Translations under genes and position numbers: made by a program
Assembly: GCF_027595985.1 (NCBI RefSeq)
Contig: NC_073305.1
Coordinates: forward strand, 171,946,172-172,010,171
Direction of reading: 5' to 3'
Source: Sorex araneus
Taxonomy: Eukaryota > Chordata > Mammalia > Eulipotyphla > Soricidae
DNA length: 64,000 nt
Part shown: piece after piece, positions 2,976 to 64,000 of the stretch
Layout of the letters: every line of letters starts with the position of its first letter
Numbering within the stretch: the first letter of the stretch is position 1
The notes under the pieces: generated by a model
What the model was told of the DNA's origin: nothing
Database searches by the model: none
Seen by the model: the letters and a program-made list of their open reading frames with translations, nothing else

Positions 2976-3594
2976 AATGCAAAGTCTCTTGCCCCCGCAC
3001 CTGGCTCTCTTCACCAGGGTCACTCAAAGTGGATAGATTGAGTTTCCCTCCCCACCCCGAGCAGAGCCCCCACAGTCAAAGACCTCCGGAACCCAGCCAC
3101 AGCCATGTTCAAGGCCCCTCTCCACATGCTCGGATGAGCCTCGTGCATAAAGGAACCGGCAGAGGAACCCAGGTATGTGAGACCTGGGGCTGAGATCTCC
3201 AAGCCTGCTCAGACCGGGACTGGGCCTCCTCCACCCAGATCCCCCATTTCCCAGTAGCTAGGTGGTCATACCCAGAAACTGTCCCCGGCATCGTGTAATC
3301 CCATCAATGGCCAACATCCAGAGACTATAAAACCAAGCTCCCAACATCTTGCAGCCTAGTTCTCCCTCTCAGAGAACCTAGAAGCTACGGAGAGTTTCCT
3401 GCCCACATGGGAGAGCCTGGCAAGCTCCCCGTGGCGTATTCCTATGCCAAAACCAGTAACAATGATAGGTCTCTTTCCTCTGACACTGAGAGTCAAACCA
3501 CTGGGAAAGACGAGTAAAGAGAGGCTTCTAAAATCTCAGAGCTAAGATGAATGGAAACGTTATTGAAACCACTCGAGAAAATTGACGATCAACG

Positions 3595-3658
<64 letters not shown>

Positions 3659-5634: not shown

Positions 5635-5797
5635 TTTTGGGTCACACCCGGCAATGCACAGAGGTTACTCCTGGCTCTTCACTCAGGAATCACTCCTGGC
5701 GGTGCTCAGGGGACCATATGGGATGCTGGGATTCGAACCTGGGTCGGCCGCGTGCAAGGCAAACGCCCTAGCCACTGTGCTATCGCTCCAGCCCCCA
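5589..5797 (-). mobile_element. SINE-A, young and nearly complete
   Basis: Minus-strand copy: poly(T) at 5589-5632 is the A tail. The body (GTCACACCCGGCAATGCACA, GGTGCTCAGGGGACCATATG) and head (CGCCCTAGCCACTGTGCTAT CGCTCCAGCCCC in two blocks) are close to consensus. A second poly(T) run follows at 5799-5823. The phrase TTGTTAGTG appears on both sides, so a TSD is possible but blurred by the T runs. Confidence 0.95.
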
Positions 5798-6045: not shown

Positions 6046-6067
6046 ATGAGACTTATTGTTGCCATTG

Positions 6068-7850
6068 TATCATTTGTATTACTTGTCTTCCCGTTAATCT
6101 TCAATTTGCTTGAGCAGGTTCCAGTAACATTTCCATTTGTCCGTGTCCCGTGCTAGTGTAGCCTAATGACATCTGCTTGCTCCAGGAACAGGAAGAGCCT
6201 CAAACTATTCATTCAGGGTTTTAACGAAAAAGTCTGACCATCTCCTTGTTGGGCGGCCAAGGAGATGTCCTGTGGAATCCAGTCGGTAACAGCTCTAGTC
6301 CGGCAGTCATCTCTGAATCGAATTACATGTCCAGCCCATCTGATTTTCAACGCCTTGGCAAATGAGACAGCGTCACTGATTCTTGACTGTAAACGGAGGT
6401 CGGAACTCCAGATTCCTTCTCTTACTTGAGTGAGACAAGATATTCCTACCATAGCTCTTTCAATTCCTCTTTGGGATAGTTGAATAGCATTCTCATCCTG
6501 TTTGCATAGGGCCCAGGTCTCTGAGGCATATGTTAATGCGGGAAGAACAGTGGAATCGAAAAGATGTGCCCAGAGTTGAAGGTCCTTTGTCCTCTTAACC
6601 ACTTCTTTGACATTCTTGAAGGCATTCCACACTGCTCTCTTCCTCCTGCGCAGTTCAGGTGCCAAGTCGTTCCTCATGTTGAGTTCTCAACCCAGGAACA
6701 CATAGCTGCTGCATTCGGAGATGTTCGTTCCATTGAGAGCAAATGGAGCGTCAGGGACTAGTTCGTTTTTCATGAGCATTGTCTTGTTGAGGTTCAGCTG
6801 CAGTCCGACCTTTCCACACTCACGGTTGAAGTCAGCCAGCATTAGTACCACTTGGTTAATATTTGGTGTTATGAGAACGATGTCATCAGCGAAGCAGAGG
6901 TGGTGTAGTTGCCGACCATCTATCTTCACTCCCATTCCTTCTCATTCCAGTCGTTGCATGACATTCTCAAGGGTGACACTGAAGAGTTTCAGTGAAATGG
7001 TATCACCTGCCGAACCCCTCTCTTTACATCAATGATTACTTCCTTGTAGAATGGTGAGGTCCTGATGGTGAATCCATAATACAGCTTAAGGAGGATCCTG
7101 ATGTACTGAGTTTGAACACCCTGTTTGGCTAGGGCTTCAATGGCCGCCTCAGTCTCAACAGAATCAAAGGCCTTCTTAAAGTCGATGAATGTTAGACAGA
7201 GCGGCATCTTGAACTCTTGCAAAACTTCAATGAATTTGATCACTATGTAGATATGGTTGATCGTGCTAAATCCTTTTCAGAACCCAGCTTGCTCGCATGG
7301 TTGTCCTTCATCTAGTGTTTTGCCTATTCTATTCAGGATGACACAAGTGAACAACTTGTAGACGACAAACAGCAGGCAGATTGGGTGATAGTTGCTGATG
7401 TCATGGATGTCTCCCTTCTTGTACAACAGAACGGTCCTACTGGTTTTCCACTGGGATGGAAGCTTGCATTCAGACAGGTAGCTTGTGAAGAGCTGAGCCA
7501 GTGTATTGATGAGTACTGGCAGCAGATTCTTCAGGTGTTCAGGTCTGACTTTGTCTGGGCCGGGTGCTGTATGGGTCTTTACCGACGAAATGGCATGTTG
7601 GATTTCAGAAGGGAGGACGTTGGGAATGACATATCCATCCTGCGGAATTTGGTATGTGGGCAGGTGAACATGGCTGTCAAAGAGATATGAGTAGAAGTCG
7701 TGAATAATCCTCTCCATTACCTTTCTGGGAGATGTGATAGATCCGTCAGGACAACGGAGGGCAGTCATCCTGGTCTTGTAGTTGGTGAAGGACAGGCGAG
7801 CATTGCGGAAGCTTTTCCCGGCTTCAGCTGCATCGGCCAACACTGCTGCT
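6068..7850 (-). mobile_element. RTE LINE copy 1, 5'-truncated
   Basis: Minus-strand insertion of about 1.78 kb. The flanks are a 14-base TSD with one mismatch: ATTGTTGCCATTGT at 6054-6067 and ATTGTTGTCATTGT at 7851-7864. The 3' end carries the short repeat tail (ATCATTTGTATTACTTGTC as read on the plus strand). Truncation falls inside the linker upstream of the reverse transcriptase domain, so the endonuclease is absent. The protein wording is of RTE clade and closest to what I recall of strongylid nematode elements and of RTE1_Sar in shrew. Confidence 0.95.
6213..7850 (-). pseudogene. RTE reverse transcriptase ORF, broken (copy 1)
   Basis: The remnant encodes the middle and end of an RTE polyprotein, which in intact elements has an APE-type endonuclease then a reverse transcriptase. 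In order: linker AVLADAAEAG; the RT entry region (PGPDKVRPEHLKN, then NRIGKTLDEGQPCEQAGF); palm motif A (FIDFKKAFDSVE); palm motif C (LCFADDIVLI) with both aspartates; and the long C-terminal region with HLFDSTVLPALTYASETWA. It is dead: in-frame TGA at 7277-7279 and 6687-6689 and a one-base deletion near 7007 that shifts the frame. About 12 bases are also missing near 6268, in the segment corresponding to KRPRGRPP. No host function is suggested. Confidence 0.93.
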
Positions 7851-7894
7851 ATTGTTGTCATTGTGTCCTAATTAATTGTTTGCAAATAAGAATG

Positions 7895-10945: not shown

Positions 10946-11871
10946 GGTAAATATTTCTAAGCCATCAAAGAGGACCTGTTGCTCATATTTTCCAACGTCT
11001 TCTAGAAATGAAAGAAATAAGAACCCTACCAAACAGTGTCTATGAAGCCAATGTTATCTTGATATCAAAAGCAGAGACATGGATTAAAAAAAGAAAGAAA
11101 ATTACAAACCAACATTCCTCATGAACAGAGATAGAGAAATCCTCAATAAAATTCTCGCAAAACAATTTTTTAAATAAAATTAATCATTACTACAATTTAG
11201 TTAGATTTTATGAAAGGATGATTCAATATACACATATCAATTACATGATATAACACATCAAAAAAACAAAACCATTTTATCAATTATCCAGATGTAGAAA
11301 AAGTGTTTTACAAAATGAGATACCCATACATGATAAAAACCCTTACAAAATGAGGACTGATGGAATTTATCCCAATATAGAAAATGCCATATACAATAAA
11401 ACCACGGTAAGCATCATAGTGGGGAATAAACAAAAGCCTTTCCTCTAATATCACACACAAGACAAGGATGTTCCCTCTAACTGCTATTATTCAACATAGT
11501 ATTAGAAGTCACAACAACTAGGTAAGAAAGAGAAATTAAAAAGACACAAACTGACAAAGAAGTCAGGCTATCACTATTTTCAGTTGGCATGTATTCATAA
11601 GACTACATACACACACAAAAATCTCCTAGAAACAATAAATCTTCATAGTATAGTAGCAGGCCACAAATCAATACACAGAAATCTGTTGCAGTCTTATACA
11701 TAATCAGTGATGTAGAAGAGAAAGTATTTTTCATGTATCCCATTTATGGAATTGTCAAAGATTCAAGTAACTAGGAGTCAGCCTGACAAAGGCAAAGTGT
11801 GTAGTTAGTGAAATAACACATTTCAATAGGGAAATTAAGGGAAGGGAATAAAAGAAGATACAAGGAAATGG

Positions 11872-12839
11872 TATTGACGTAAAGAGAGGGGTTCAGCAGA
11901 ATGATACCATTTCACTGAAATGCCAACCTCTTCAGTGCCACCCTCGGAAACATCATGCAACGACTGGAATGGGAAGGAATGAGAGTCGGCAACTACAACC
12001 ACCTCCACTTCGATGATGACATCGTTCTAACAACACCAAACATTAGCCAGGTGGCATAAATGCTGGCCGACTTCAACCATGAATGTGGAAAGGTCGGACT
12101 GCAGCTGAATCTCACCAAAACAGTGTTCATGAAAAATGAACTACTCTCTGACATTCCATTTGCTCTCAATGGAACGAACATCTTTGAATGCAGCAGCTAT
12201 GTGTACCTGTGTCGAGAACACAACATGAGGAATGACTTGGCGCCAGAACTGCTCAGGAGGAAGAGAGCAGCAAGGAACGCCTTCAAAAGCGTCAAAGAAG
12301 TGGTTAAGAGAACCAAGAACCTCCAGCTCTGGGCACAACTTTTCAACTCCACCGTTCTTCCTGCACTAACATATGCCTCAGAGACCTGGGCCCTATGCAA
12401 ACAGGAGAGAATGCTCATTACTCGGGTATCTCAAAGAGGAACTGAAAGAGCTATGCTTGGAGTATATCATTTCACTCAAGTGAGAGAAGGAATTCAGAGT
12501 TCTGACCTCCATCGACAATCAAGAATCAGGGATACTCTCTTGTTTGCCAATGCATCAAAAATCAGATGGGCCGGACATGTAATGCAATTCAGAGGCGACT
12601 GCTGGACTAGAGCTGTTACTGACTGGTTCCATGGGATGTCAAAAGACAGCTTGGCTGCCCACCAAGGAGATGGTCAGACTTCTTTGGCAAAACCCTGAAT
12701 GAACGATTTGAGGCTATTCGTGTTCCTGGAGCGAGCAGATACCATTGGGCTACACTAGCACACCACAGGGATGAATGGAGATGTTACTGGCGCCCATTAG
12801 AGCAAATTGAAGACCAAGGGGATGACAAGTAATACAAAT
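11872..12839 (+). mobile_element. RTE LINE copy 2, 5'-truncated
   Basis: 968 bases flanked by a perfect 15-base TSD, GATACAAGGAAATGG, at 11857-11871 and 12840-12854. The TSD belongs to the surrounding L1, so the insertion is shrew chromosomal DNA and not contamination. The 5' end is in the palm domain, just after motif A (the ATIDVKRGVRQ region). A degraded motif C follows; a frame from 12060 to 12698 covers the C-terminal region including YASETWALCKQ and IRWAGHVMQF. It ends in GATGACAAGT and a short tail. It encodes no active enzyme. Confidence 0.96.
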
Positions 12840-13513
12840 GATACAAGGAAATGGAAACATACCCCTTGTTCATGGAGTCAAAGAATCAATATTAGTAAAA
12901 TGACCACCCTACCCAATTTATTTTACAGGTTTATTGCAATCTTCATAAATATTTACCTGATATTCTTCAAAGACATAGAGCAAATATTTCTAAAATTCAC
13001 ATGGAACCATAAAACTCCCAGAACAGTCAAGTCATATGTAAGAAAAAAATGTAGGAGGCTAATTACATTTAAACTATGCTATAAAGCGCTTAAATGTAGC
13101 TATAAAGTATATCAAAACTGTGGCACTGGAATAAGGGCAAACTCAGATCAACTGAAATCGAAGTTGAGAAGCCAGGGGACAGCAAAGGGACTGATGCATA
13201 AAGTGAAGAAAGGCAAGTCCTTCAACAAAGAGGGCTTGGAAAACTAATTATTTTAGGTCAAAAAAAAAAAAAAACAAGTAGGCCCATATGCACACCATAC
13301 ACAAAAATTAATTCAAAATGAATTAAACACCTGGATACTGAAACTTTCTATAAAAAATATTGAGTCACACATAGGCAAAACTTTATATGCACCTCAGAAG
13401 AGTCTTCAATGAAATAACCCAACTGGCAAACAAAATAAGAAATTAACAGATTAGTAATATAGTAAACTAAAAAAATCCTGCACAATAAAAGAAATGAGGC
13501 CTAAAATAAAAAA

Positions 13514-13706
13514 ATACCCTCCACCCCTCTTGGAGAGCCTGGCAAGCTATTGACAGTATCGCGCCCGCATGGCAAAGCCTGGCAAGCTACCCGTGGCATA
13601 TTTGATATGCCAAAAAACAGTAACAAGTCTCACAATGGAGACATTACTGGTGCCCGCTCCAGCAAATTGATGAACAACAGGACAACAGTGCTACAGTGTT
13701 ACATAT
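13514..13706 (+). mobile_element. SINE-B, 5'-truncated
   Basis: The tRNA head is missing. The body (GAGAGCCTGGCAAGC twice, ATGCCAAAAAACAGTAACAA) and the RTE-type 3' end (CAATGGAGACATTACTGGTG to ACAGGACAACAGTGCTACAG) are present. It lies inside the old L1. Confidence 0.9.
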
Positions 13707-13986: not shown

Positions 13987-14237
13987 TGTAGTGGAGTCAC
14001 AGCACAGTGGGTAGAGTGTTTGCCTTGCACGAGGCCAACCCAGGTTGATTCCTCCATCCTTCCTGGAGAGGCCGGCAAGCTACTGAGAGTATCCTGCCCA
14101 TGCACAGAGCCTAGCAAGCTACCCGTGGTAACAACAGTAACAACAAGTCTCACAATGGAGACGTTACTGGTGCCTGCTCGAGCAAATCGATGAACAACAG
14201 GATGACAGGACGACAGTGCGACAGTGCTACAGTGCTT
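13987..14237 (+). mobile_element. SINE-B, full length
   Basis: Head GTCACAGCACAGTGGGTAGA with B-box-like CAGGTTGATTCC, body GCCGGCAAGCTACTGAGAGT, and the RTE-type 3' end from 14154 (AATGGAGACGTTACTGGTGC), then ACGACAGTGCGACAGTGCTA repeats. It is one of the clearest plus-strand copies for comparing the SINE tail with the RTE tail. Confidence 0.93.
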
Positions 14238-17927: not shown

Positions 17928-18830
17928 GGGGCAATGCCCAGCTCTGCTCAGGTCTTACTCTTACCTCAGCACTCAGAGATCACTCCTGCTGGGTTTTAGG
18001 GTCCATATGTAGTACCATATTATGTTCATGAAAAGCGAACTAGTCCCTGACGTTCCATTTGCTCTCAATGGAATGAACATCTCCACATCTCCGAATGCAG
18101 CAGCTATGTGTACCTGGGTTGAGAACTCAACATGAGGAATGACTTGGTGCCAGAACTTTGCAGGAGGAAGAGAGCAGCGTGGAACGCCTCCAAGAGCATC
18201 GAAGAAATGGTTCAGAGGACCAAGAACCTCCAGATCCCGGCACATCTTTTTGATGCCACTGTTCTTCCTGCACTAATAGACGCCTCAGAGACTTGGGCCC
18301 TATGCAAACAGGATGAGAACTCTCTTTGTGTATCCCAGAGAAGAATCTAAAGAGCTGTGCCTAGAGTATCACATTTCACTCAAGTGAGAGAAGGAATCCG
18401 AAATTCCTACCTCTGTCGACAGCCAAGAATTAGGGACGCTGTCTCATTTGCCAAGGCATCAAAAATCAGATGGGCCGGACACGTAATGCAATTCAGAGAT
18501 GACTGCAGGACTTGAGATATTACCAACTGGATTCCACAGGACGTCAAAAGACCGCATGGCCGCCCACCAACGAGACGGTCAGACTTCTTCATCAGAACCC
18601 TGAATGAACAGTTTGAGGCTCTTCCTGTTCTTGGAGCGAGCATATACCATTGGGCTACCCTAGCATGCAACAGGGACAAATAGAGACGTTACAGGCACCT
18701 GCTTAAGCAAATTGAAGATCAAGGGGATGACAAGTGATACAAGTGATGTAATACCAGGGATTAAACCTGGTTTGACTACATACAATACAAACACCCTACC
18801 CACTGTACTACCTCTCTGGCTCCATGGAGC
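17928..18830 (-). mobile_element. SINE-A split by RTE copy 3
   Basis: The 3' half (GGGGCAATGCCCAGCTCTGC to GGTCCATATGTAGTACCA) lies at 17928-18017 and the 5' half (ATACCAGGGATTAAACCTGG to CTACCTCTCTGGCTCC) at 18746-18824. Together they form one continuous SINE-A, which shows that this SINE was in place before the RTE inserted. Confidence 0.9.
18018..18745 (+). mobile_element. RTE LINE copy 3, 5'-truncated
   Basis: 728 bases flanked by an 11-base TSD with one mismatch: ATGTAGTACCA at 18007-18017 and ATGTAATACCA at 18746-18756. The remnant covers the C-terminal region of the polyprotein, from the thumb-side segment (MRNDLVPELCRRKRAAWNA) on. A TAA stop in the middle (near 18348) and further changes kill it. 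It ends in GATGACAAGTGATACAAGTG, the native RTE tail. It sits inside a SINE-A on the opposite strand. Confidence 0.95.
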
Positions 18831-19383: not shown

Positions 19384-19636
19384 GTAGTAGCAGTATCACT
19401 GTCATCCCGTGGTTCATCTATTTGCTCGAGTTGGCACCAGTAACGTCTCCATTGTGAGACTTGTTGTTACTGTTTTGGGCATATCAAATACTCCATGGGG
19501 AGCTTGCCAGGCTCTGCCATGCGGGCAGGATACTCTTGATCACTTGCTGGGCTCTCCAAGAGGGGTGGAGGAATCAAACTGTGGTTGGTCACATGCAAGG
19601 TAAACTCCCTACCTCTGTGCTATCACTCCATACCAA
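19384..19636 (-). mobile_element. SINE-B, full length
   Basis: The RTE-type end (TATCACTGTCATCCCGTGG, CACCAGTAACGTCTCCATTG) is at the left, the body in the middle, and the tRNA head (CTACCTCTGTGCTATCACTC) at the right. Confidence 0.93.
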
Positions 19637-21795: not shown

Positions 21796-21998
21796 TTGTT
21801 ATCACTGTATCACTGTCATCGCATTGTTCATAGATTTGCTCAAGCGGGTGCCAGTAATGTCTTCATAACCCTATTATGTGCTAGTGTAGCCCGATGGCAT
21901 CTTCTCACTCCAGGAACATGAAGAGCACATTTTTGTTATTGTTTTTGGCATATCAAATATGTCATGGGTAGTTTGCCAGGCTCTGCCATGTGGGGAAA
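21796..21998 (-). mobile_element. Chimeric RTE/SINE-B insertion
   Basis: Left to right on the plus strand it shows the SINE/RTE tail (TATCACTGTATCACTGTCAT) and the shared 3' end. About 75 bases follow that occur only in the RTE LINE upstream of the shared end (ATGTGCTAGTGTAGCCCGAT, TCACTCCAGGAACATGAAGA). The SINE-B body comes next (GTTTTTGGCATATCAAATAT to GGCTCTGCCATGTG). The SINE head is absent. The piece therefore joins SINE body to a longer RTE 3' end than normal SINE-B carries. Confidence 0.85.
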
Positions 21999-22019
21999 AA
22001 AAGAATTGAAAAATAAAAA

Positions 22020-22410
22020 TAAAGAGGTTGTGCGGCCACAAAGGCGGCCATGTGCTAGAGGAAAAATTGTGTTTCTCTCCTCAGGGAGCTTTGTTTTATA
22101 GTCTCTGGATCTTGGCCATAGAGGAGGTTACTTACCTGGTGAGACACCATGTAATACTTGGTAGTGAACATATTCTTCTCATCTCATGCATTCTTTCTTG
22201 GAAGCAATCAGATTGCCTCATATTGGTCAAGCTGTCCAGTTGTACTTGACTAAAAACTGCTTAACTAAAGAGACTTGGGGAGAGGGAGGACAGGAATTGC
22301 TCACTGCTTAAAGGGAGTTGGAAGAATCTAAGATTGGAACTGGACAGAATGTTTCCATAGAACGTAAAACTGCTAGATTACAAAGTCTCCAATAAAGTAC
22401 TTTTAAACTG
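22020..22410 (+). mobile_element. Possible LTR
   Basis: A block of mixed GC with an AATAAAG signal near 22391. Bases 22085-22128 (GCTTTGTTTTATAGTCTCTG, GATCTTGGCCAT) match the reverse complement of the TATA-containing part of COMP-C. Ends and family are not determined. Confidence 0.35.
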
Positions 22411-23717: not shown

Positions 23718-23730
23718 TTTGGCACTCATA

Positions 23731-23967
23731 GCACTATCATCCCATTGTTCATCAATTTGCTCTAGCGGGTACAAGTAACATCTCCATGGTGAGACGTTGT
23801 TACTGTTTTTGGCATATTGAATATGCCACAGGTAACTGGCCAGGCTCTGCCATGTATGTGGGATACTCTCACTAGTTTGCCAGGCTCTCTGAGAGGGACG
23901 GAGGAATAGAACCCGGGTCAGCGGCGTGCAAGACAAACGCCCTATCCGCTGTGCTATCACTCCTGTC
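23731..23967 (-). mobile_element. SINE-B with TSD
   Basis: Flanked by TTTGGCACTCATA (23718-23730) and TTTGACACTCATA (23968-23980), a 13-base TSD with one mismatch. The tail is very short (GCACTATCATCCC). The head is intact, with GGAATAGAACCCGGG as B-box complement. Confidence 0.95.
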
Positions 23968-25967: not shown

Positions 25968-26124
25968 TCTGACCCCTCATCTACTTTCTTGTTGTGGCTT
26001 CTAGATAGATGATTTGATTACTAGTGCCGTCTAACTACATTCTCAGGCCAGACTTCCTAAAGCTAACTCTAAGTATTCAATGAGAATGGAATGATAGATA
26101 AAAGTTTAAAAGAATAAAGTACAG

Positions 26125-26307
26125 GGGCTGGAGCTATAGCACAGTGGGTAGGGTATTTTCCTTGCATGCGGCCAACCAGCGTTTGATTCCCAGTATCCCA
26201 TATGGTCCCTGAGCACCGCCAGAAGTAATTCTTGAGTGCATGAGCCAAGAGTAACCCCTGTACCTCACTGGGTGTGACCCAAAACCAAAAACAAAACAAA
26301 ACGAAAA
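26125..26307 (+). mobile_element. SINE-A with perfect TSD
   Basis: Flanked by AAGAATAAAGTACAG at 26110-26124 and 26308-26322 (15 of 15). Head GGGCTGGAGCTATAGCACAG, B-box GTTTGATTCCC, tail with CCAAAACCAAAAAC. Confidence 0.97.
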
Positions 26308-26461
26308 AAGAATAAAGTACAGAAGTAACTCAGATACTAATAAAAAAAAAATATTTCCCTGAAAAACAGACAAACAAACAAAAAAACCCCAGTAACTTCT
26401 GCAAATCTTCATTTTCTTCCCACCTTTGTTCTCAATTTTTTTGGTTCTTTTCTTTTCTTGC

Positions 26462-26978: not shown

Positions 26979-26996
26979 TCCAGCTATTATTTCTTT

Positions 26997-28302
26997 TTTT
27001 TTTTTTTTTTTTTATTGAATCACCAAGTGGAGGGTTACAAAGTTCTCAGGATTATGTCAGTTATACAATATTCAAATACCCCTTCCTTCACCAGTGCCCA
27101 TCTTACATTCCCAACCCCCCCAGTCTATCTGCCGCCCCCTCCCACCTGCCTAGTCCCCACCCTTATACGTGATAGGTTTCACTTCATTTGCGCTTATCTC
27201 GATTACATTCCATGTTTCAACACACAACTCACTACCGTTGCTGGGGTTTCCCCCCAAAAAGAAAAAGACAGTCCTATTGCCAATGAGGCATTTGATAATT
27301 CTCCATTACTAAGCATATAGAGATATTAAGTCCTGCTGTTTGTTACATAACTTTTCTTTTTCCCCCTTGCCCCGCGCCACCGAGTTCACGCCTGTTTAGT
27401 AATCGCCACGCTGTCTGACAAAGGGAAAATAAACCGAAGAGGATGGTTATTTCCCGTCATCAGCCGGCGTGGGGCTCTGGCTTAGTTGATAGTCTAGTAG
27501 AGTGTCTGGAAGCAGTTCCTGGAACCAAAGCTCTTGCGCTGATATCGGCTCCGGCTCGAGATACCACCAGCGTCCCGCTGGTCCATGTACCTAATTTTTC
27601 CCCTTATTTCCCATTCCCACGCCACCAGGTCTGTTTGCTTAATGGACATCACACTATGTTTGACACCACGCCACGTTTCTTCCCGAGAAAGAAGGATATT
27701 TCTTCTCAGCCAGCGTGGGGATATAGCTTAGTTCAGTCTAGAGAGATGGCTACCATTTTGATTGCCTTCAATATTTCAACAAAATACTTACTATTCTTGT
27801 TAGGATCACCCACAAAAGTCCGACCCATTAAGAAGGAACCATTACATACTGCTGATACTAAGATGACATTAAGTCGCGCGGCCGCTGCCGGTTTTGGGTT
27901 TCTGTCTAAAGTCCAGGGAGAAAGTTGAAGGAGAGAGAGAGAGAGATTTCCGCACGGGGGACCTGGCGGAAACTCTCAAGTCACATACTGCAGGTTGCTG
28001 GTGGGCTGCCGGTGTCCCAAGCAGCTCCGTCCTCTTCGTCAGTCATTCTGGGGGTGCGGGCGCGGAGAAATGGGAAAGCCCACGTGGCTGCACTCTCTTT
28101 AAGTGTCCGATGTGGGCGGAGACCGGTACTTCCCCGCCCTCGATTCCCCGCCAGCCGCGCCGCGCACTTGGGTGCGTCTCTCCATTTTGTGCTCAGAAGT
28201 GGGATAGATGCTGTGTGCAGGTTGCTGGTGGGCTGCCGGTGTCCCAAGCAGCTCCACCCTCTTCGTCAGTCATTCTGGGGGTGCGGGCGCGGAGAAATGG
28301 GC
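26997..28302 (-). mobile_element. COMP-D composite, full length, TSD-flanked
   Basis: 1306 bases on the minus strand flanked by CTATTATTTCTTT at 26984-26996 and 28303-28315. The 5' part (27890-28302) is CpG-rich and contains two near-identical blocks of about 83 bases (27987-28070 and 28218-28300). Next come a GCGGCCGC junction (27879), a moderately GC-rich middle, and an L1-type 3' UTR (AAGTTCTCAGGATTATGTCA region as read on the plus strand), with poly(A) as T's at 26997. A related copy lies at 54999-56375. Frames of 90-171 codons here differ between copies and match no protein I know. Confidence 0.88.
27987..28300 (-). repeat. Repeated 83-base block in the COMP-D 5' region
   Basis: The block (CAGGTTGCTGGTGGGCTGCC ... 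GTGCGGGCGCGGAGAAATGG) occurs twice with a spacing of about 231 bases. The copy at 55-56 kb shows related blocks in a similar layout. Repeated 5' monomers are a known L1 promoter style; a promoter role here is inference. Confidence 0.8.
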
Positions 28303-28591: not shown

Positions 28592-28840
28592 TCACTGTCA
28601 CTGTCACTGTCATCCCATTGCTCATCGATTTGTTCGAGCAGGTACCAGTAATGTCTCTCATTGTGAGACTTATTGTTACTGTTTTTGGCATATCCAATAT
28701 GCCACGGCTAGCTTGCCAGGCTCTGCCGTGCAGGCGCAATACTCTCAGTAGCTTGCTGGGCTCTCCAAGAGGGGCAGAGGAATCGAACACGGGTCGGCCA
28801 CGTGAAAGGCAAATGCCCTACCGCTATGCTATCACTCCAA
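28592..28840 (-). mobile_element. SINE-B with TSD
   Basis: Flanked by CTTATATATG at 28582-28591 and 28841-28850. The tail is (GTCACT)n in plus-strand sense. Body and head are close to consensus, with GGAATCGAACACGGG as B-box complement. Confidence 0.95.
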
Positions 28841-32525: not shown

Positions 32526-32775
32526 CACTGTCACTGTATCACTGTCATCCCGTTGCTCATTGATTTGCTCGAGCGGGCATCAGTAGCGTCTCCATTGTGA
32601 GACTTGTTACTGCTTTTGGCATATCGGATACGCCATGGGGAGCTTGCCAGGCTCTGCTGTGTGGGCAGGATACTCTCGGTAGCTTGTCGGGTTCTGCGAG
32701 AGGGGTGGAGGAATCGAACTGGGGTTGGCTGCATGTAAGGCAAACGCCCTACCCACCACTGTGTTATCGCTCCAG
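32526..32775 (-). mobile_element. SINE-B, full length
   Basis: Tail TATCACTGTCACTGTATCAC, shared RTE-type end with CATCAGTAGCGTCTCCATTG, body, and head ending CACTGTGTTATCGCTCCAGG. GAAATTAT and GAAAGTTAT at the two ends may be a decayed TSD. Confidence 0.93.
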
Positions 32776-36230: not shown

Positions 36231-36247
36231 AATTAAAATATCTCCTG

Positions 36248-36444
36248 GGGGCTGGAGCGATAGCACAGCGGGTAGGGCATTTGCCTTGCACACGGCCGAC
36301 CTGGGTTTGATCCCCAGCATCCCATATGGTCCCCTGAGCACCGCCAGGAGTAATTCCTGAGTGCAGAGTCATGAGTAACCCCTGTGCATTGCCAGGTGTG
36401 ACCCAAAAAAGCAAAAAAATAAAAAAAAAATTAAAAAATAAAAT
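36248..36444 (+). mobile_element. SINE-A, young, with TSD
   Basis: One of the best copies: GGGCTGGAGCGATAGCACAG, CGGCCGACCTGGGTTTGATC, CACCGCCAGGAGTAATTCCT, tail of CAAAAAAATAAAA type. Flanked by AAAATATCTCCTG (36235-36247) and AAAATACCTCCTG (36445-36457), one mismatch. An (AAAT)n run follows the right TSD. Confidence 0.97.
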
Positions 36445-36458
36445 AAAATACCTCCTGA

Positions 36459-38113: not shown

Positions 38114-38363
38114 TGCACTGTAGCACTGTCATTCTGTCCATTGTTCATCAATTTGCTCAAGCAGGCACCAGTAACATCTCCATTGTGAGACTTGTTACTG
38201 CTTTTGGCATATCGAATATGCCATGGGTAGCTTGCCAGACTCTGCTGTGCGGGCAGGATACTCTTGGCAGCTTTCCAGGCTCTCCAAGAGGGACGGAGGA
38301 ATCAAATCCAGGTTGACCACATGCAAGGCAAATGCCCTACCCGCTGTGCTATCACTTCAGTCC
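38114..38363 (-). mobile_element. SINE-B, full length
   Basis: Tail TGCACTGTAGCACTGTCATT, RTE-type end, body and head (CTACCCGCTGTGCTATCACT). Another element with the same 3' end starts 11 bases after it. Confidence 0.93.
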
Positions 38364-38374
38364 AATATATATCA

Positions 38375-38965
38375 CTGTATCACTGTATCACTGTCATCCC
38401 GTTGTTCATCGATTTGCTCAAGCAGGCACCAGTAACATCTCCATTCATCCTATTCCTGAGATTTTAGCAGCCTCTCTTTACTTTTCCTTCCCAATGGTGC
38501 CTCATTGGAGGGTCTTTCAGGATCAGGGGAATGAGACCCATCATTGTTACTGTTTTTGGCATATGGAATACGCCATGCGGAGCTTGCTAGGCTCTGCCAT
38601 GCAGGCAAGATACTCTCGGTAGCTTGGAGTATCCTGCCTGATAGAGGAAGAACTAGACAATAAGAGGTCTGGAAGCTTTGTTTTATAGTCTCTGGATCTT
38701 GGTCATTGATGGGATTACACAGCACCAGGGACAGTTTGTGGTGTGACTGCCAAGCTACTGGAAAAAGGGGGATCTGGGTGGAAAAGGCCAAGTCCCGATG
38801 CTAGCAGGCTTGGAGTGTTCAGTCCCGGGTCGCACACACCTGGGTTCCTCTGCCCATTACTTCATGTGTGAGGTTCGTCCGAGCATGTGGAGAATGGTCT
38901 TGAGCATGGCTGTGGCTGAGTTCCGGAGGTCTTCAGCTGCCTAAGACAGCCAAGTGTAGGGACAG
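38375..38965 (-). mobile_element. COMP-C composite, nearly complete
   Basis: Left to right: a (TATCACTG)n tail, the RTE-type end (CACCAGTAACATCTCCATTC), the private segment (GATTTTAGCAGCCTCTCTTT, CAATGGTGCCTCATTGGAGG), the SINE-B-like middle (GTTTTTGGCATATGGAATAC), then the GC-rich 5' part. That 5' part holds the reverse of CTATAAAA near 38680 and ends near 38960 in CAGCTGCCTAAGACAGCCAA. Its tail repeats are of SINE-B type and not (GAT)n. Confidence 0.85.
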
Positions 38966-40141: not shown

Positions 40142-40495
40142 CCCTGTTTCCACTGTCCTCAGATATTAGTATCATATCACATTGTTGTTGGGTTTTTCCC
40201 CCCATATGATTCAGCAATACCACTTCTGGGAATATATCCTGGGGACCAAACACAGTGTAAAAATGCCCTGCGCACTTCTATGTTCATTGCAGCACTAGTC
40301 ACAGTAGGCAGAATCTGGAAACACCTGAGTGCCCAAGAAAAAGATGACTGGATAAAGAAACTATGGCACATCTACCCAATGGAATTCTATGCAGATCAAG
40401 AGAAATGAAGTAATGAAATTTGCATATTAATGGATGGACATGGACAGTCTCCTGCTGAGTGAAATGAGTCAGAGGGAGAAGGACAGACATAGAAT

Positions 40496-43102
40496 CACTT
40501 GTATCACTTGTCATCCCGTTGATCTTCGATTTGCTATAGAGGGTGCCAGTAACGTCTCCATTTGTCCCTGTCACATGCTAGTGTAGACCAATGATATCTG
40601 CTCGCTCCAGGAACAGGAAGAGGCTCAAATTGTTCATTCAGAGTTTTGACGAAGAAGTCTGACCATCTCATTGGTGGGCAGCCATGCGGTCTTTTGACGT
40701 CCTGTGGAATCCAGTAGGTAGCAGCTCTAGTCCAGTGGTCATCTCTGAATCGCATTACGTGTCTGGCCCATCTGATTTTTGATGCCTTGGCAAACGAGAC
40801 AGCGTCCCTCATTCTTGACCATCAATGGAGGTCGGAACTCCAGATTCTTTCTCTCACTTGAGTGAGATGTGATACTCCTAGCATAGCTCTGTCAATTCCT
40901 CTTTGGGGTACCCGAATAGAGTTCTCATCCTGTTTGCATAGAGCCCAGGTCTCTGAGGTGTATGTTAGTGCAGGAAGAATGGTGGAATCGAAAAGATGTG
41001 CCTGGAGTTGGAGATTCTTCATCCTCTTAACCACTTCTTCGACGCTCTTGAAGGCGTTCCACGCTGCTCTCTTCCTCCTGAGCAGTCCTGGAGCCAAGTC
41101 GTTCCTCATGTTGAGTTCTCGACCTAGGTACACATAGCTGCTGCATTCGGAGATGTTCATTCTATTGAGAGCAAATGGAGCGTCAGGTTTTGAAAAACTA
41201 GTTTGTTTTTCATTAGCATTGTCTTGTTGAAATTCAGCTGCAGTCTGACCTTTCCACACTTAAGGTTGAAGTCGGCCAGCATTTGTGCCTCTTGGCAAAT
41301 GTTTGACATTATGAGAACGATGTCATCAACAAAGCGGTGGTGGTGTAGTAGCTGACTGTCTATCTTCACTCCCATTCCTTCCCATTCCAGTCATCGCATG
41401 ATGTTCTCAACGGTGGCACTGAAGAGTTTCAGTAAAATGGTATCACTCTGCCGAACCCTTCCCTTTACGTCAATGGTCGCTTCCTTGTAGAATGGTGAGA
41501 TCCTGGTGGTGAATCCACAATACAGCTTGCAGAGGATCTTGATGTACTGAGTTTGAATGCCCTGTTTGGCTAGTGTTTCAATGACCACTTCTGTCTCAAC
41601 ATAATCAAAAGCCTTCTTTAAGTCGATAAACATTAGACAGTGTGGCATCTTGAACTCTTGTGAAACTTCAATGAGTTTGGTCACCATGTAGATATGGTCA
41701 ATCGTGCTGAATCCTTTTCTGAGCCCGGCTTGCTCACATGGTTGTCCTTCATCTAGTGTTCTGCTATTCTATTCAGGATGACACAAGTGAACAACTTGTA
41801 GACAATAGACAACAGACAGATTGGGCAATAGTTGTTGATGTCATAAATGTCTCCCTTCTTGTACAACAGAACGGTCCTGATGGTTTTCCATTGAGACAGA
41901 ACCTTGCATTCAGACAGGTAGTGTGTGAAGAGCCAAGCCAGTGTATTGATGATTACTGCTGGCAGATTCTTCAGGTGTTTGGGTCTGACCTTGTCCGAAC
42001 TGGGTGTTGTATGCATCTTTAACAACGAAATGTCATGTTGGATTTCGGAAGGGAGGACACTGGGAACGACATATTCATCCTTCGGAATTTGGTATGTGGG
42101 CAGGTGGAATTTGGTATGTGGGCAGATCTCATGGCTGTCAAAGAATCTGAGTAGAAGTTTTGAATAATCCTCTCCATTGACTTTCTCGAAGATGTGATAG
42201 ATCCATCAGGACATCAGAGGACAGTCATCTTGGTCTTGTAGTTGGCGAGGGATAGGCGAGCATTGTGAATAATTTTCCCGGCTTCTGTTACATCAGCCAA
42301 CACTACTGCTCTTCTCCCTTTGAGGTCTTCATTTATTGCTTCTCTGCACAGCTTTGTGAGCTCGGATGTTAGCTTGTGGTTGCCTGAGGCTCCCGCTAAA
42401 CCACGTTGACGAATGAGCTTGAGAGTTTCCAAAGACAGGCATCTGTTTGTGGCTTTCTCACTCAGCATTCTTCACGGAGTCATGGAGGTGCTGAACCAGT
42501 CGACCATATTCCTTGTCAATGTTGTCAAGGATGGCATCTTCCCACATTGCTGCAATGGTGCCAAAGAGCTCCCAGTTGATGGTCATTCTGGGAGTTCCCT
42601 TCTTCAACTTAAATTTTGCAGACCATTCTCCCAGCTCTGTGAAGTAGAATTTTGCACGAAGGAGACGGTGGTCCGATCCCATTTGGAATTTTGGAACAAC
42701 AGCGACATCAGTCAGGCAAAACCTTCAATTGAATATGATGTGGTCAATTTCATTGTGGAACTGTCCACCGGGAGACTCCCATGTCCAGCGTTTAGCCTTC
42801 TGGAACTGTGAGTTACCATGGATGGTCTTGGTCGACCATCTGTCTCAGACAGATGTCTATCTGATGAACTCAGACAGTCTCTCACCCTGATCGTTCCATT
42901 CTAGGCCATGGGTCCCAATGTGGAGTTCTTCGGTCCACCTTCTTGGTCCTATCTTGACATTAAAATCACCAACATCTTGTAGAAGGTGTGGTCTTCTTTA
43001 CAGAACTTCTCCAGTTCCATGTGTGTAGATGACGAAGATAGAAACTGCAGGCAGTGAGCCACATCTATTCAAGCTTAATTGTCCAATTCGGGTTGTTAGG
43101 CA
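40496..43102 (-). mobile_element. RTE LINE copy 4, longest copy
   Basis: About 2.6 kb on the minus strand. The 3' tail (CACTTGTATCACTTGTCATC in plus-strand sense) is at the left. The flanking TSD is 12 bases with two mismatches: CAGACATAGAAT at 40484-40495 and TAGACAAAGAAT at 43103-43114. Both lie in L1 sequence that reads through once the RTE is removed. It is truncated inside the endonuclease, so neither a full ORF nor a 5' UTR exists in this window. A 22-base tandem duplication is present at 42084-42127. Confidence 0.95.
40534..43102 (-). pseudogene. RTE endonuclease-reverse transcriptase ORF, broken (copy 4)
   Basis: Minus strand, N- to C-terminal: endonuclease pieces RIGQLSLNRCGSLPAVSIF, VGDFNVKIGPRRW (the asparagine motif of APE-type nucleases) and MGSDHRLLRAKF (the Asp-His catalytic motif). 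Next come a linker with NWELFGTIAAMWEDAI and LKGRRAVVLADVTEAGK, the RT start (KVRPKHLKNLPAVIINTLA), motif A (FIDLKKAFDYVE), a degraded motif C (HRFVDDIVLI, with V in place of A), and the C-terminal region. The ancestral ORF end is QIEDQRDDK followed by a stop. The frame changes several times and a TAG lies nine codons before that end, so it is inactive. Confidence 0.93.
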
Positions 43103-44583: not shown

Positions 44584-44693
44584 GGTATCACTGTATCACT
44601 GTCATCCCATTGTTCATTGATTTACTCCAACGGGCACCAGTAACGTCTCTATTACACTCATCCCTCAGATTTTAGCAGCCTCTCCTTACCTTA
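44584..44693 (-). mobile_element. COMP-C 3' fragment
   Basis: Tail TATCACTGTATCACTGTCAT, shared end CACCAGTAACGTCTCTATTA, then the private COMP-C segment CAGATTTTAGCAGCCTCTCC. 5'-truncated. Confidence 0.8.
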
Positions 44694-45123: not shown

Positions 45124-45689
45124 ATGGATGCTTCTGATGCCAGAGTACATGTGTTGAAGCGTCAAAGAAATGGTTAAGAGGATGAAGAACCTCTGGCTCC
45201 GGGCACATCTTTTCGACTCCACCATTCTTCCTGCACTAACATACGCCTCAGAGACCTGGGCCCTTTGAAAACAGGATGAGAACGCTATTTGGGTATCCCA
45301 AAGAGGAATCGAAAGAGCCATGCTAGGTGAATCACGTTTCACTCAAGTGAGAGAAGGAATCTGGAGTTTCGACCTTCGTCGATGGTCAAGAATCAGGGAC
45401 GCTGTCTTGTTTGCCAAGGCATCAAAAATCAGATGGGCCAGACACATAATGCAATTCAGAGACGACCACTGGACTAGAGCTGTTATGGACTGGATTCCAT
45501 GGGATGACAAAAGACCACGTGGCCGCCACCAATGAGATGGTCAGACTTCTTTTTCAAAACCCTGAATGAACGATTTGAGGCTCTTCCTGTTCCTGGAACA
45601 AGCAGATATCATTGAGCTACACTAGCACACAACAGGGACAGATGGAGACGTTACTGGCACCTGCCCGAGCAAAGTTGGATGACAAGTGA
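45124..45689 (+). mobile_element. RTE LINE copy 5, short
   Basis: Flanked by a perfect 12-base TSD, TATGTCTTCTCA, at 45112-45123 and 45690-45701. RTE homology proper begins at about 45159 (GCGTCAAAGAAATGGTTAAG). The 35 bases between the TSD and that point are not clear RTE sequence and may be filler or an inverted scrap. The remnant covers the C-terminal region (HLFDSTILPALTYASETWA-like, then RWARHIMQFRDDHWTRA) with stops, and ends GATGACAAGTGA without further tail repeats. Confidence 0.94.
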
Positions 45690-45701
45690 TATGTCTTCTC
45701 A

Positions 45702-47825: not shown

Positions 47826-47867
47826 CACACTTTGAAATTATTGTTTTGCTGGAACCAGATAGCCTAG

Positions 47868-48135
47868 TTTTCCCTTTTGGAGAACCTGGCAAGCTACTGA
47901 GAGTTTACTGCCCGCCCAGGAGAGCTTGGCATGCTCCCTGTGGCGTATTCATATACCAAATACAGTAACAATGATGGTTTCATTCCCCTGACCCTGAAGA
48001 GCCTCTAATGCGGCACCATTGGGAAGGACAAGTAAAGAGAGGCTGCTAAAATCTCAGGGCTAGGACAAATGGAGACGTTACTGAGCCCGCTCGAGCAAAT
48101 CATTGATCAATGGGATGACGTGATACAGTGATGGG
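47868..48135 (+). mobile_element. COMP-C, 5'-truncated
   Basis: Begins at GGAGAACCTGGCAAGCTACT and keeps the SINE-B-like middle, the private segment (GGAAGGACAAGTAAAGAGAG) and the RTE-type end (GGAGACGTTACTGAGCCCGC to GATGACGTGATACAGTGATG). Confidence 0.87.
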
Positions 48136-50791: not shown

Positions 50792-51026
50792 GGCGCTGTA
50801 GTGCACTATCGTCCTGCTGTTCATTGATTTGCTCAAGCAGGCACCAGTAATGTCTCCATGTGAGACTTGTTGTTACTGTTTTTGGCATATCGAATACGCC
50901 ATGGGTAGCTTGCCAAGATCTGCCGTGTGGGCGGGATAGTCTCGGTAGCTTACCGGGCTCTCTCCGAGAGGGACGGAGGAATCGAACAAGGCAAACACCC
51001 CACCCACTGTGCGCTGTCTCCAGTCC
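50792..51026 (-). mobile_element. SINE-B with perfect TSD
   Basis: Flanked by TTGGAGAGGGT at 50781-50791 and 51027-51037 (11 of 11). A short internal deletion removes part of the head, between GGAATCGAAC and AAGGCAAAC. Confidence 0.96.
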
Positions 51027-51947: not shown

Positions 51948-52129
51948 TACATGGGACTGGAGCAGTAACACAGCGGGTAGGACGTCTGCCTTGCACGTGG
52001 CTGACCCGAGTTCAATTCCTATCATCCCAAATGGTCCCCTGAGCACCGCCAGGAGTAATTCCTGAGTGCGAAGCCAGGAGTAAGCCCTGTGCATCACCAG
52101 GTATGACCCAAAAAGAAAGAAAACAAAAG
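51948..52129 (+). mobile_element. SINE-A with TSD
   Basis: GGGACTGGAGCAGTAACACA, GACCCGAGTTCAATTCC and AGCACCGCCAGGAGTAATTC; tail AAAAGAAAGAAAACAAAAG. AAGAATGGGA at about 51937 and at 52130 is the likely TSD. Confidence 0.93.
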
Positions 52130-52139
52130 AAGAATGGGA

Positions 52140-57630: not shown

Positions 57631-58289
57631 TCTCTTGCCCCCGCGCCTAGCTGTCTTCACTGGGGCCCCTCGGAGGGGGTGGGTTGAGTTTCCCTCCCCA
57701 CTCCAAGCAGAGCCCCGGCAATTGAAAACCTCCGGAACCCAGCCACAGCCATGCTCAAGGCCCCTCTCCACATGTTTGGACGAGCCTCATGCATGAAGGA
57801 ACCAGCAGAGGACCCCAGGTGTGTGGGACCCAAGGCTGAGATCTCCAAGTCTGTTCAGATCAGGACTGGGTTTCTTCCACCCAGATCCTCCATTTTCCAG
57901 TAGCTAGGTGGTCACACCCAGAAACTGCCCCTTGCCATGTAATCCCATCAACAGCGAACATCCAAAGACTATAAAACCAAGCTCCTGTAAGTGCGCAGCC
58001 ACATGACATCTTATATCCTAGTTCTCCCTCTTACAGAACCTGGCAAGCTACCGAAAGTTTACTGCCCCCATAGGAGAGCCTGGCAAGCTCCCCTTGGTGT
58101 ATTCATATGCCAAAACCAGTAACAATGATGGTCTCATTCCCCTGACCCTGAAAGAGCCTCTAATGTGGCACCATCGGGAAGGACGAGTAAAGAGAGGCTT
58201 CCAAAATCTCAGGGCTAGGATGAATGGAGGCGTTCATTACTGAGACCGCTCCAAAAAATCGACGATCAACGGGATGATGATGATGATGA
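57631..58289 (+). mobile_element. COMP-C composite, full length
   Basis: Starts CTCTTGCCCCCGCGCCTAG and keeps every module: GC-rich 5' part, CTATAAAA (57970), duplicated AGAACCTGGCAAGC / GGAGAGCCTGGCAAGC, ATGCCAAAACCAGTAACAAT, GGGAAGGACGAGTAAAGAGA, RTE-type end, and a short (GAT)5 tail. A four-base duplication (TTCA) sits in the shared end near 58232. Confidence 0.88.
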
Positions 58290-58720
58290 CCATAAGAATA
58301 TGTCACTGAAAATTGGCATTCTCTTAAATGCCTTTCCCTTTTAGCATTTCCAGCACCAATTGGTCTTTTTTCTTCTATTTTATAGGTTTTAAAAGATGGA
58401 GAACTGAGTTAATCAGTCTTGGGGCAAAACTTCTCTTCAGCAAGTATGTTGTGCTTTCTTTCTTTTTTTTTCCTTTTGATCCCCACAGCACAGTACATTC
58501 ATGAAAAAGGATGAAAAACTTCCCAGAAGAATAATTAAGTGGATTTCCTGGCCAGGGTGCCAATATAATTGGCTTTAAGTTGCTCTAATTATAGCAACTC
58601 AGGGCTAAAATTAATAAATTTCCATAACAATTTTATTCTCATACCTTTCTGATGTTTTCTAAAACCTGAGGAAATATTTTTCTCAATTGACTTTTGCCTG
58701 TTCTATCATCTTTTCTAAAA
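58290..58720. other. AT-rich sequence, no feature
   Basis: No recognisable repeat or gene. Confidence 0.35.
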
Positions 58721-60744: not shown

Positions 60745-60994
60745 TGTCACTGTCACTGTCATCCCGTTGCTCATTGATTTGCTCGAGCAGGCACCAGTAA
60801 CGTCTCCATTGTGAGACTGACTTGTGTTAGTGTTTTTGGCATGTCAAATATGCCACGGGTAGCTTGCCAGGCTCTGCCGCGCAGGCGACATACTCTCGGT
60901 AGCTTGCCAGGCTCTCTGAGAGGGGCAGAGGAATTGAACACAGGTTGGCCGCGTGCAAGGCGAACGCCCTACATGCTGTACTATCACTCCAGCC
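60745..60994 (-). mobile_element. SINE-B inside REP-E, with TSD
   Basis: Flanked by TTTGAATAAACAC (60732-60744) and TTTGGATAAACAC (60995-61007), one mismatch. Tail (TGTCAC)n. An extra CTGA-type duplication near 60818 lengthens the body. Confidence 0.96.
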
Positions 60995-62828: not shown

Positions 62829-63080
62829 AAGGAGAAAGAGCGATAGCACAGTGGTAGGACATTTGCCTTTCACGCTGCCGACCTGTGTTCGATTCCTCTG
62901 CCCCTCTCAGAGAGCCCGGCAAGCTACTGAGAATATCGTGCCCGCACGGCAGAGCCTGGGAAGCTACCTGTGGTGTATTCGATATACCAAAAACCAGTAA
63001 CAATAAGTCTCACAATGAGAGATATTACTGGTGCCAGCTCGAACAAATCAATGAGCAACGGGATGACAGTGATAGTGACA
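62829..63080 (+). mobile_element. SINE-B, full length
   Basis: Head AAGAGCGATAGCACAGTGGT, B-box GTGTTCGATTCC, body GAGAGCCCGGCAAGCTACTG and GATATACCAAAAACCAGTAA, RTE-type end AGATATTACTGGTGCCAGCT to CGGGATGACAGTGATAGTGA. Best plus-strand copy for reading both pol III boxes. Confidence 0.95.
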
Positions 63081-63417
63081 TTCTAAATAAGTTTAAATGT
63101 GGCAGTGATGATAAATTAAAAGGATTAGATTTTAAATAAAGATAAGACTAGATGGGCCAGTGTCATATCCACCATACTAACTCCAGCCCTAATAAAGATT
63201 CTTTTAGTGTACAAATTTTAGTTTATTTGTTAAAATAAATTAAATAAAATATAGAATATTGAATCACTATAATTATAAGGTGATATAATTTCAAATATAT
63301 TTTAATATAAACAAAATATCTAACAGTATACCTATTATATATTTTAGAATACTACCTTAAATAGATAAATCAAAATCTCTGCTTTAATAAATATGTGTTC
63401 TACTTTGTGAAGAAGAA
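63081..63417. other. AT-rich sequence, no feature
   Basis: No recognisable repeat or gene. Confidence 0.35.
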
Positions 63418-64000
63418 GTCTCTTGCCCACGCACCTGGCTGTCTTCACTGGGGTCCTTTGGAGGGGGTGGGCTCCAGCTTCCCTCCCCGCCCCAAGCAGC
63501 GCTCCCTCGACCGAAGACCTCCAGAGCCTTAGCCACAGCCATGCTCAAGGCCCCTCTCCACACGTTCGGATGAGCCTCGCGTGTGAAGGTACCAGCAGAG
63601 AAAGCCAGGTGTGTGGGACCTGGGGCTCAGACCTCCAAGCCTGCTCCGATCAAGACTGGGCCTCTTCTGACCAGATTTCCCATTTTCCAGTAGCGAGGCG
63701 GTCACACCCAGGGACTGCCCCCTTCGCCATGTAATCCCACCAATGGCCCACACCTAAAGACTATAAAACCAAGTTCCCAGAAGTGACATCTTATAGCCTA
63801 GTTCTCCCTCTTGGAGAACCTGGCTAGCTACCAAGAGTTTCCTGCCCACATGGGAGAGCCTCACAAACTACCCATGGTGTATTAATATGCCAAAACCAGT
63901 AACAATGCTGGGTCTCATTCCCCTGACCCTGAAAGAGCCTCCAGTGTGCCATCACCGGGAAGGATGAGTAAAGAGAGGCTTCTAAAATCTCAGGGCTAGG
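63418..64000 (+). mobile_element. COMP-C composite, cut by the window end
   Basis: Starts CTCTTGCCCACGCACCTGG and runs through CTATAAAA (63764), the duplicated CTGGCTAGC / GGAGAGCC region and the private segment to TCTCAGGGCTAGG at the last base. The RTE-type end must lie just beyond the window. Confidence 0.88.

Follow-up and report, generated by a model that had tools for sequence, protein, structure and literature searches.

A shrew SINE that appears to combine a Sor-type head with the leader and ORF end of an RTE LINE

Introduction

The window analysed here, the whole 64,000-nucleotide stretch of the Sorex araneus genome in which all positions below are numbered, contains at 13988-14236 a short element whose two ends resemble different retrotransposons, the first being a tRNA-like head found also in a second SINE and the last a stretch found also at the end of an RTE LINE. 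The locus raises the question of where the parts of this element came from, in what order they were joined and which LINE protein moved the product. A first-pass annotation, made from the sequence alone, designated the two families SINE-A and SINE-B and proposed that a resident SINE had captured the 3' recognition end of a horizontally acquired RTE and had thereby become mobile. The joining of a resident SINE head to RTE sequence is borne out by the results below; mere capture of a 3' end is not, as the body of SINE-B is RTE as well.

Structure and abundance of SINE-B

The finding copy (forward strand) is divided by consensus mapping into a tRNA-like head of Sor type that contains pol III A and B boxes (13988..14050), a body corresponding to the RTE 5' leader and bearing two small internal deletions (14051..14153), a 3' end equivalent to the last ~17 codons of the RTE ORF (14154..14207) and short tail repeats of the GACAGTG/CTACAGTG type (14208..14236). 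A clear target-site duplication is absent from this copy, and an Rfam search returned no match to it. For the family as a whole the modules measure ~64 bp for the pol III head, ~110 bp for the body and ~55 bp for the RTE ORF end.

BLAST with the finding sequence identified ten SINE-B copies in the window, nine with the head and one without; the family recognised in the first-pass annotation was thus confirmed, at ten copies rather than the "about eleven" given there. The headless copy lies at 13518..13698 and a further forward-strand copy at 62838..63074. The remainder are on the reverse strand, at 19393..19632, 23729..23963 (target-site duplication TATGAGTGYCAAA), 28599..28840 (ACATATATAAG), 32532..32774, 38116..38362 (immediately adjoining the tail of a copy of the X family described below), 50804..51022 (ACCCTCTCCAA) and 60748..60991 (GTGTTTATYCAAA).

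The 29-base junction inside SINE-B, AACAAGTCTCACAATGGAGACGTTACTGG, had 21,147 exact matches across the genome (65 contigs, 2.406 Gb) and its reversed control 0. This figure counts the internal junction, says nothing on the presence of the head and sets a lower limit; SINE-B copies are probably more numerous, because the observed divergence should have erased many exact matches. The change that had been called productive on the strength of the window copies was therefore so on a scale far beyond what the window showed. A search of viral contigs found nothing. Two genomic SINE-B matches 3.2 kb apart (L005 and L006), equal in score and identity, look like a local duplication.

A head shared with the Sor SINE

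Unedited majority consensus heads, built from 30 genomic SINE-A copies and 10 window SINE-B copies, were identical at 60 of 65 columns with one gap, and none of 1000 shuffles was as good; with CpG sites adjusted by hand, identity rose to 63 of 65 columns. Both consensus heads contain TAGCACAG and GGTTCGATTC, and pol III A and B boxes are present in both consensus sequences, single copies being mutated. The common tRNA-like head postulated for the two families is thus upheld. ARAGORN called one SINE-A copy as tRNA-Ala. There is no TTTT inside the SINE-B consensus. Beyond the head, the bodies of SINE-A and SINE-B showed weak similarity, 52 of 2000 shuffles scoring as high.

The shrew SINE known as Sor is a T-minus SINE according to PMC11240701, and primers and a probe for a Sorex SINE are given in PMC8608897. 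Each of these oligonucleotides had one mismatch to the SINE-A consensus and 7-10 mismatches to that of SINE-B; since they differ from SINE-A by one base each, SINE-A is, on this match, the published Sor SINE. The head of Sor as described in these two sources is the same as that of SINE-B, but the Sor body and the A-rich tail that follows it are both missing from SINE-B, and for this reason SINE-B is not classed as Sor. Copies of SINE-A in the window include one at 5640..5796 on the reverse strand, followed by an A-rich tail, and three on the forward strand with target-site duplications, at 36247..36445 (TAAAATAYCTCCTG), 26123..26319 (AAAAGAATAAAGTACAG) and 51952..52135 (AAGAATGGGA).

The RTE LINE and its origin

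The RTE is represented in the window by a broken element on the reverse strand (40494..43100), without the 5' leader but with recognisable endonuclease, reverse transcriptase and C-terminal regions, and by four 3' parts: 6063..7853 on the reverse strand (target-site duplication ACAATGRCAACAAT) and, on the forward strand, 11859..12846, in which an open piece at 12060-12695 matches nematode reverse transcriptases, 18022..18747 and 45158..45691. A Pfam search recognised RVT_1 in one of six RTE pieces, slightly below the curated cut-off. The C-terminal piece matched 879 proteins; for the 120 listed, identity was 52-75% and the named sources were all strongylid nematodes (Angiostrongylus, Nippostrongylus, Heligmosomoides, Haemonchus, Necator, Ancylostoma and Parelaphostrongylus), some sources being unnamed; the best 10 of 102 matches to the endonuclease region had 62-70% identity.

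Dunemann and Wasmuth (PMC6542046) described RTE1_Sar, an RTE of Sorex araneus that likewise has strongylid nematode relatives, and regarded it as horizontally transferred, most likely of nematode origin. They report no RTE hits in reads from star-nosed mole, European hedgehog and solenodon, and in the available portion of their text the word SINE is absent. The window RTE fits RTE1_Sar, as judged by its strongylid relatives. The supposition that this LINE was acquired horizontally agrees with that account, in which the transfer was already published (PMC6542046). Because the RTE fits an element published as a nematode-derived transfer, about three quarters of SINE-B is probably worm-derived by descent.

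Two unnamed proteins from short contigs, P0105 and P0113, had 75% identity to the RTE piece over 60-63% of it, above the named nematode proteins, and could represent shrew DNA in an environmental sample. Among the RTE matches listed genome-wide, most copies have stops in the matched part and some have none.

The 3' end and tail repeats

The 3' end of SINE-B and the end of the RTE were identical at 54 of 62 columns with one gap, and none of 1000 shuffles was as good, so that the near-identity of the last ~55 bases of SINE-B to the RTE 3' end, as first noticed, is substantiated. The common stretch comprises the final ~17 codons of the RTE ORF and is not a 3' UTR. The SINE-B consensus still reads WRRYWCPLEQIDEQRDD at this end; the RTE C-terminus is KWRRYWHPLEQIEDQRDDK in the consensus from the shrew and, in a protein of Nippostrongylus, EWRRYWRPLEQIDDQRDDR. 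Because the stretch is coding in the RTE, the "recognition end" of the first-pass annotation is, as read from these alignments, the RTE ORF end plus the repeat tail. Short tail repeats follow both elements, as had been stated, those after SINE-B being of the CAGTG/TGATACAG type and those after the RTE of the TGATACAA type; an A-rich tail is absent from SINE-B. In total the shared stretch occurs at 21 sites in the window, of which 5 belong to the RTE, 10 to SINE-B and 6 to X-like or other RTE derivatives. A conserved RNA hairpin within the stretch was considered and dropped, as folding scored no better for the three consensus tails than for shuffles (z of -0.05, -0.07 and 0.84).

The body of SINE-B

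The body of SINE-B is common to the X family, an element of ~640 bp with no tRNA head, in which a peptide-like stretch, SHSPDPERASNVAPLGRTSKERLLKSQG, is joined directly to the RTE C-terminal end. Some RTE-type proteins, from Haemonchus and metagenomes, are extended by read-through ahead of the conserved start AICTFNARTL; these leaders nearly match this stretch, for example NGPHSPEPEGAPNTAALGRTARERLLKSQGQNRLPKRRRTKM in P0225; Necator proteins have a more distant version. A profile of ten nematode and metagenome leaders, from which window sequence was excluded, was run against the six-frame translation of the window and matched the X family in four of its five copies, three at E<=1.7e-5 and one at E 0.027, with nothing further in the window below E 1 (best value 1.2 in one shuffled window). 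The fifth X copy, at 2985, was missed by the profile and was found with the P0225 leader alone (E 0.043). The Haemonchus leader P0226 matched the SINE-B copy at 13518 at E 8e-4 (RPHGKAWQATRGI-FDMPKNSNKSH against TPHVRAWQATRWVLFTRQKNSNKNE); its matches to four further SINE-B copies, in the same register, had E values of 0.11-0.38 and were no better than the shuffled best of 0.16.

First-look candidates for the RTE in the genome numbered 51,732 with a 244-residue query comprising the leader and the start of the endonuclease; scoring was applied to 150, all of which matched. The top 30 of these all began at query residue 6-8, within the leader, and continued into the ORF. The SINE-B body (unedited consensus) aligned directly upstream of the RTE ORF, at 77-93% identity, in 28 of the 30; of the two exceptions, L038 aligned in part and L016 not at all. 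SINE-B therefore does have a body other than that of SINE-A, as the first-pass annotation had it, but one that is traced to the RTE 5' leader. Upstream of the leader, 26 of the 28 loci share a common RTE 5' UTR ending in ...gccgccctaaaag or a close variant, from which L018 and L031 differ. SINE-B carries the Sor head in place of this UTR, and head and leader meet at the end of the B box, with GGTTCGATT on the head side of the junction and CCTCCG on the leader side. Since the RTE leader and ORF end account for SINE-B past the B box, its sequence beyond that point is, to judge from the alignments, RTE (5' leader plus 3' end), and a third source is unneeded.

From these results SINE-B is interpreted, with a probability of about 0.9, as a chimeric non-autonomous retrotransposon composed of a Sor pol III head, the RTE leader, the RTE ORF end and an RTE-like tail.

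The shrew RTE leaders examined (L009-L038) are of at least two types, AAAAAC and AACAAC. Descent of SINE-B from a single leader type was rejected, both types being equally close to it (0.887, n=5, and 0.890, n=19, respectively; four loci unassigned). Pairs of loci share between about 110 and more than 400 bp of RTE 5' UTR upstream of the leader. At L018, one of the 28 loci, the A-rich tail of a SINE-A adjoins the leader exactly where the head/leader junction of SINE-B sits, which is perhaps a clue to the 5' end or the switch point of the RTE RNA.

The X family and other RTE derivatives

The X copy at 2985..3656 on the forward strand (~640 bp) consists of a 5' part, the RTE leader, the RTE ORF end and a GAT tail. 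Others, recognised by the leader profile or a leader match, lie on the same strand at 57631..58290, 63416..64000 (cut by the window end) and 47859..48130 (5'-truncated), and a copy on the reverse strand at 38370..38941, recognised by the leader profile, has a core and tail of the SINE-B type. The 3' end of an X-like element was found at 44589..44689 on the reverse strand. A third RTE derivative, at 21803..22131 on the reverse strand, combines an X-like 5' fragment, a core resembling that of SINE-B and ~135 bp from the end of the RTE ORF, and differs in its internal junction and its longer ORF-end piece. The X internal junction had 3,049 exact copies in the genome (control 0).

The 5' part of X contains TATAAAA. 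A simple composition of X from the RTE 5' UTR and 3' end was rejected, as X 1-379 has no full match upstream of the leader. X ~98-190 matched the RTE 5' UTR at 67-78% identity, with E<1e-3 at 8 of 28 loci; L022 was left out of this comparison on account of a separate X copy at that locus. The X 5' part is thus probably, in part, RTE 5' UTR. When X translations were compared with full nematode proteins by simple local alignment they did not stand out; in a single frame the score exceeded that of the shuffles, over a proline-rich stretch.

The RTE would so have produced several internally deleted, "bipartite" derivatives, of which SINE-B is the one with a Sor head, and X and the element at 22131-21803 would be sister examples. 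A different relationship within this group is possible, at rather less than even odds: one of SINE-B and X may have arisen from the other through a swap of 5' parts and not directly from the RTE. The X copy at 38941-38370, with its SINE-B-type tail and a core equally close to X and to SINE-B (0.772 and 0.773), points in this direction, but the internal junctions of the two families differ, X retaining ~80 bp more leader, and the tree of the cores is weakly supported.

It is unlikely that the bipartite RTE part was formed in the nematode donor and transferred ready-made, with the head swap alone taking place in the shrew. The leader is recognisable in nematode proteins, and the endings of X and SINE-B (IDDQRDD and IDEQRDD) are at least as similar to IDDQRDD of Nippostrongylus as to the shrew RTE ending, IEDQRDD; against this, the leader of SINE-B is ~89% identical to shrew RTE leaders (5 and 19 loci), and such deletions are frequent in RTEs (PMC7245038).

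Age of SINE-B and the RTE

Half the mean pairwise distance among window copies with CpG sites masked was 0.092 for SINE-B (bootstrap 0.079-0.107), 0.087 for the RTE (0.070-0.107), 0.111 for X and 0.203 for SINE-A. Distances to a CpG-adjusted consensus were 0.046-0.089 for SINE-B (n=15) and 0.047-0.087 for the RTE (n=5, all from the window). Measured to the unedited majority consensus, they were 0.055-0.117 (mean 0.086, n=15) for SINE-B, 0.047-0.090 (mean 0.067, n=5) for the RTE and 0.008-0.403 (n=111) for SINE-A. The sample for the consensus distances consisted of the window and loci fetched with a SINE-A 30-mer, and was thus unselected for SINE-B and the RTE and biased to less mutated copies for SINE-A, the head start of which was located in 18 of 30 loci; L048, which overlaps L047, was included for the CpG-adjusted distances and left out for the unedited ones. 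Half the pairwise distance among 28 leader-bearing RTE loci, which are the least mutated of the 51,732 candidates, was 0.028, compared with 0.053 for 19 SINE-B copies.

The order of age of SINE-B and the RTE is mixed, depending on the measure, and their ranges overlap in small samples. Taken together, these data do not make SINE-B clearly older than its supposed LINE partner; it may be slightly older, as it is by the unedited consensus, and the RTE side is represented by five unselected copies. The age range of SINE-A is far wider than that of either SINE-B or the RTE. Divergence from the consensus among SINE-A copies L039-L068 extends from 40% down to 0.8%, and because it reaches so low a value the L1-type SINE-A (Sor) seems to have been active very recently.

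Insertion signature and mobilisation

Of the nine headed window copies of SINE-B, four had a clear target-site duplication at the tail; swapped flanks gave 2 of 72 and random pairs 18 of 3000. Among 18 genomic SINE-B copies there were 8 with one (controls 3 of 306), and five window and ten genomic copies had no clear duplication. Duplications starting with AA numbered 9 of 13 for SINE-A (10 genomic and 3 window; A5590 omitted because of its poly-A) and 1 of 12 for SINE-B (Fisher p 0.0036, a criterion picked after looking at the data). An AA start is the signature expected of L1 for Sor, and is missing in SINE-B. SINE-A is followed by an A-rich stretch, in agreement with the A-rich, L1-type tail ascribed to that family.

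Because SINE-B is without the AA-start signature, an A-rich tail and an internal TTTT, the best reading is that it was moved by the RTE protein. The proposal that the RTE mobilises SINE-B gains from an insertion signature that sets this family apart from the L1-type SINE-A, and stays conditional as regards use of the RTE itself. Pol III would transcribe SINE-B from the Sor head, and the RTE protein would recognise the shared 3' ~55 nt of the RNA and reverse-transcribe it where the target has been nicked.

L1 uses pol III transcripts in other mammals, and Sor copies cover the same age range as SINE-B and beyond, so L1 was available; nevertheless, that L1 still mobilises SINE-B, the RTE sequence merely hitchhiking, is very improbable given the missing A-rich tail, the disparity in AA-start duplications between the two families and the narrow ages of SINE-B, unlike those of Sor. 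Mobilisation by the RTE thus remains the preferred reading.

Order of events

One internally deleted RTE derivative would have received its Sor head through a template switch, or by recombination, at the B box. This route is probably the simpler, because everything beyond the B box is RTE. The reverse order set out in the first-pass annotation, in which a full Sor SINE kept or took another body and gained only the RTE 3' recognition end, can claim the real common head and 3' end and the weak similarity between the SINE-A and SINE-B bodies, but is scarcely credible and, on the alignments, already refuted for the body, which matches the RTE 5' leader over its full length in 28 of 30 loci and a nematode leader in one SINE-B copy (E 8e-4), while the Sor body primers mismatch SINE-B and fit SINE-A; its rescue by treating the leader as a SINE-B insertion inside the RTE is countered by the presence of the leader in nematode RTEs.

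Relation to known SINEs

Chimeras of the kind proposed here, a deleted RTE that has acquired a Sor head, have counterparts in several hosts. The AviRTE SINEs of birds (ManaSINE1 and others) have a bipartite tail from the 5' and 3' regions of their LINE (PMC4844689), as does SINE-B with its body from the LINE 5' region and its tail from the 3' end, and AviRTE is an RTE common to vertebrates and nematodes by horizontal transfer, as here. The head of ManaSINE1 is tRNA-derived; that of SINE-B is tRNA-like and comes from an existing, long-lived Sor family. They differ in RTE family and hosts, and the 3' part of SINE-B is ORF end and not 3' UTR. For hagfish SINE1-1_EBu and the related SINE2, PMC7245038 sets out an explicit model in which an internal deletion comes first and the chimera forms afterwards, the product being, as in SINE-B, a bipartite RTE derivative joined to the 5' part of another SINE; the hagfish heads are 7SL or other tRNA types, and the available part of that source has no horizontal transfer.

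In other mammals, Bov-tA and Ped-2 combine a tRNA-type head, which in Ped-2 is that of the ID SINE, with a tail from Bov-B, an RTE (PMC3747384). They resemble SINE-B in this arrangement, and ruminant Bov-B was horizontally acquired, Bov-tA being treated in PMC8620236 as dependent on the horizontally transferred RTE/BovB; Bov-B is not an RTE of the strongylid type. For Bov-A2, RTESINE1, MAR4 and RTE1-N1_LA, PMC3747384 gives the promoter as "(5'-end of RTE)" together with an RTE tail, and the X family likely belongs to this class, although these elements derive from other RTEs and the X 5' part only partly matches the shrew RTE 5' UTR.

No shrew pair appears in the available mammalian part of the SINE table of PMC3747384, and a full-text literature search found no description of a Sor-head/RTE pair in shrews; SINE-B may already be catalogued in Repbase or Dfam. 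The type of chimera is thus known from birds (AviRTE) and hagfish, and the shrew SINE-B/RTE pair is a new example.

We lean slightly towards a wider reading, in which one transfer of a parasitic-worm LINE equipped a mammal with a second functional retrotransposition engine, onto which the common SINE head of the host was rebuilt. The head would then have run both on L1, as the long-lived Sor with its very recent activity, and on the worm RTE, as SINE-B, in a single bounded burst shared with the RTE. Each SINE-B copy, of tens of thousands or more, would be about three quarters worm by descent. The mixed comparison of SINE-B and RTE ages weakens this reading. If true, it would be a second case, after AviRTE, of a nematode-shared RTE spawning a SINE in a vertebrate host, and a clear mammalian one. 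As one head would run on two engines in one genome, the shrew would permit the effects of the LINE partner alone on insertion site, lifetime and copy number to be compared. SINE-B insertions would be expected solely in shrew lineages that received the RTE, and would provide a testable marker that helps to date the transfer.

Other features of the window

A pair of ~940-bp repeats at 26985-27922 and 54990-55924, 93.6% identical, was the best-preserved long pair in a self-comparison of the window. The reverse strand at 45901-46025 matched the Rfam snoRNA ACA64 at 36.4 bits (threshold 35). At 61615-61875 a 134-bp unit is present in two tandem copies with 78% matches, near which the sequence at 61050-61739 resembles that at 43827-44468.
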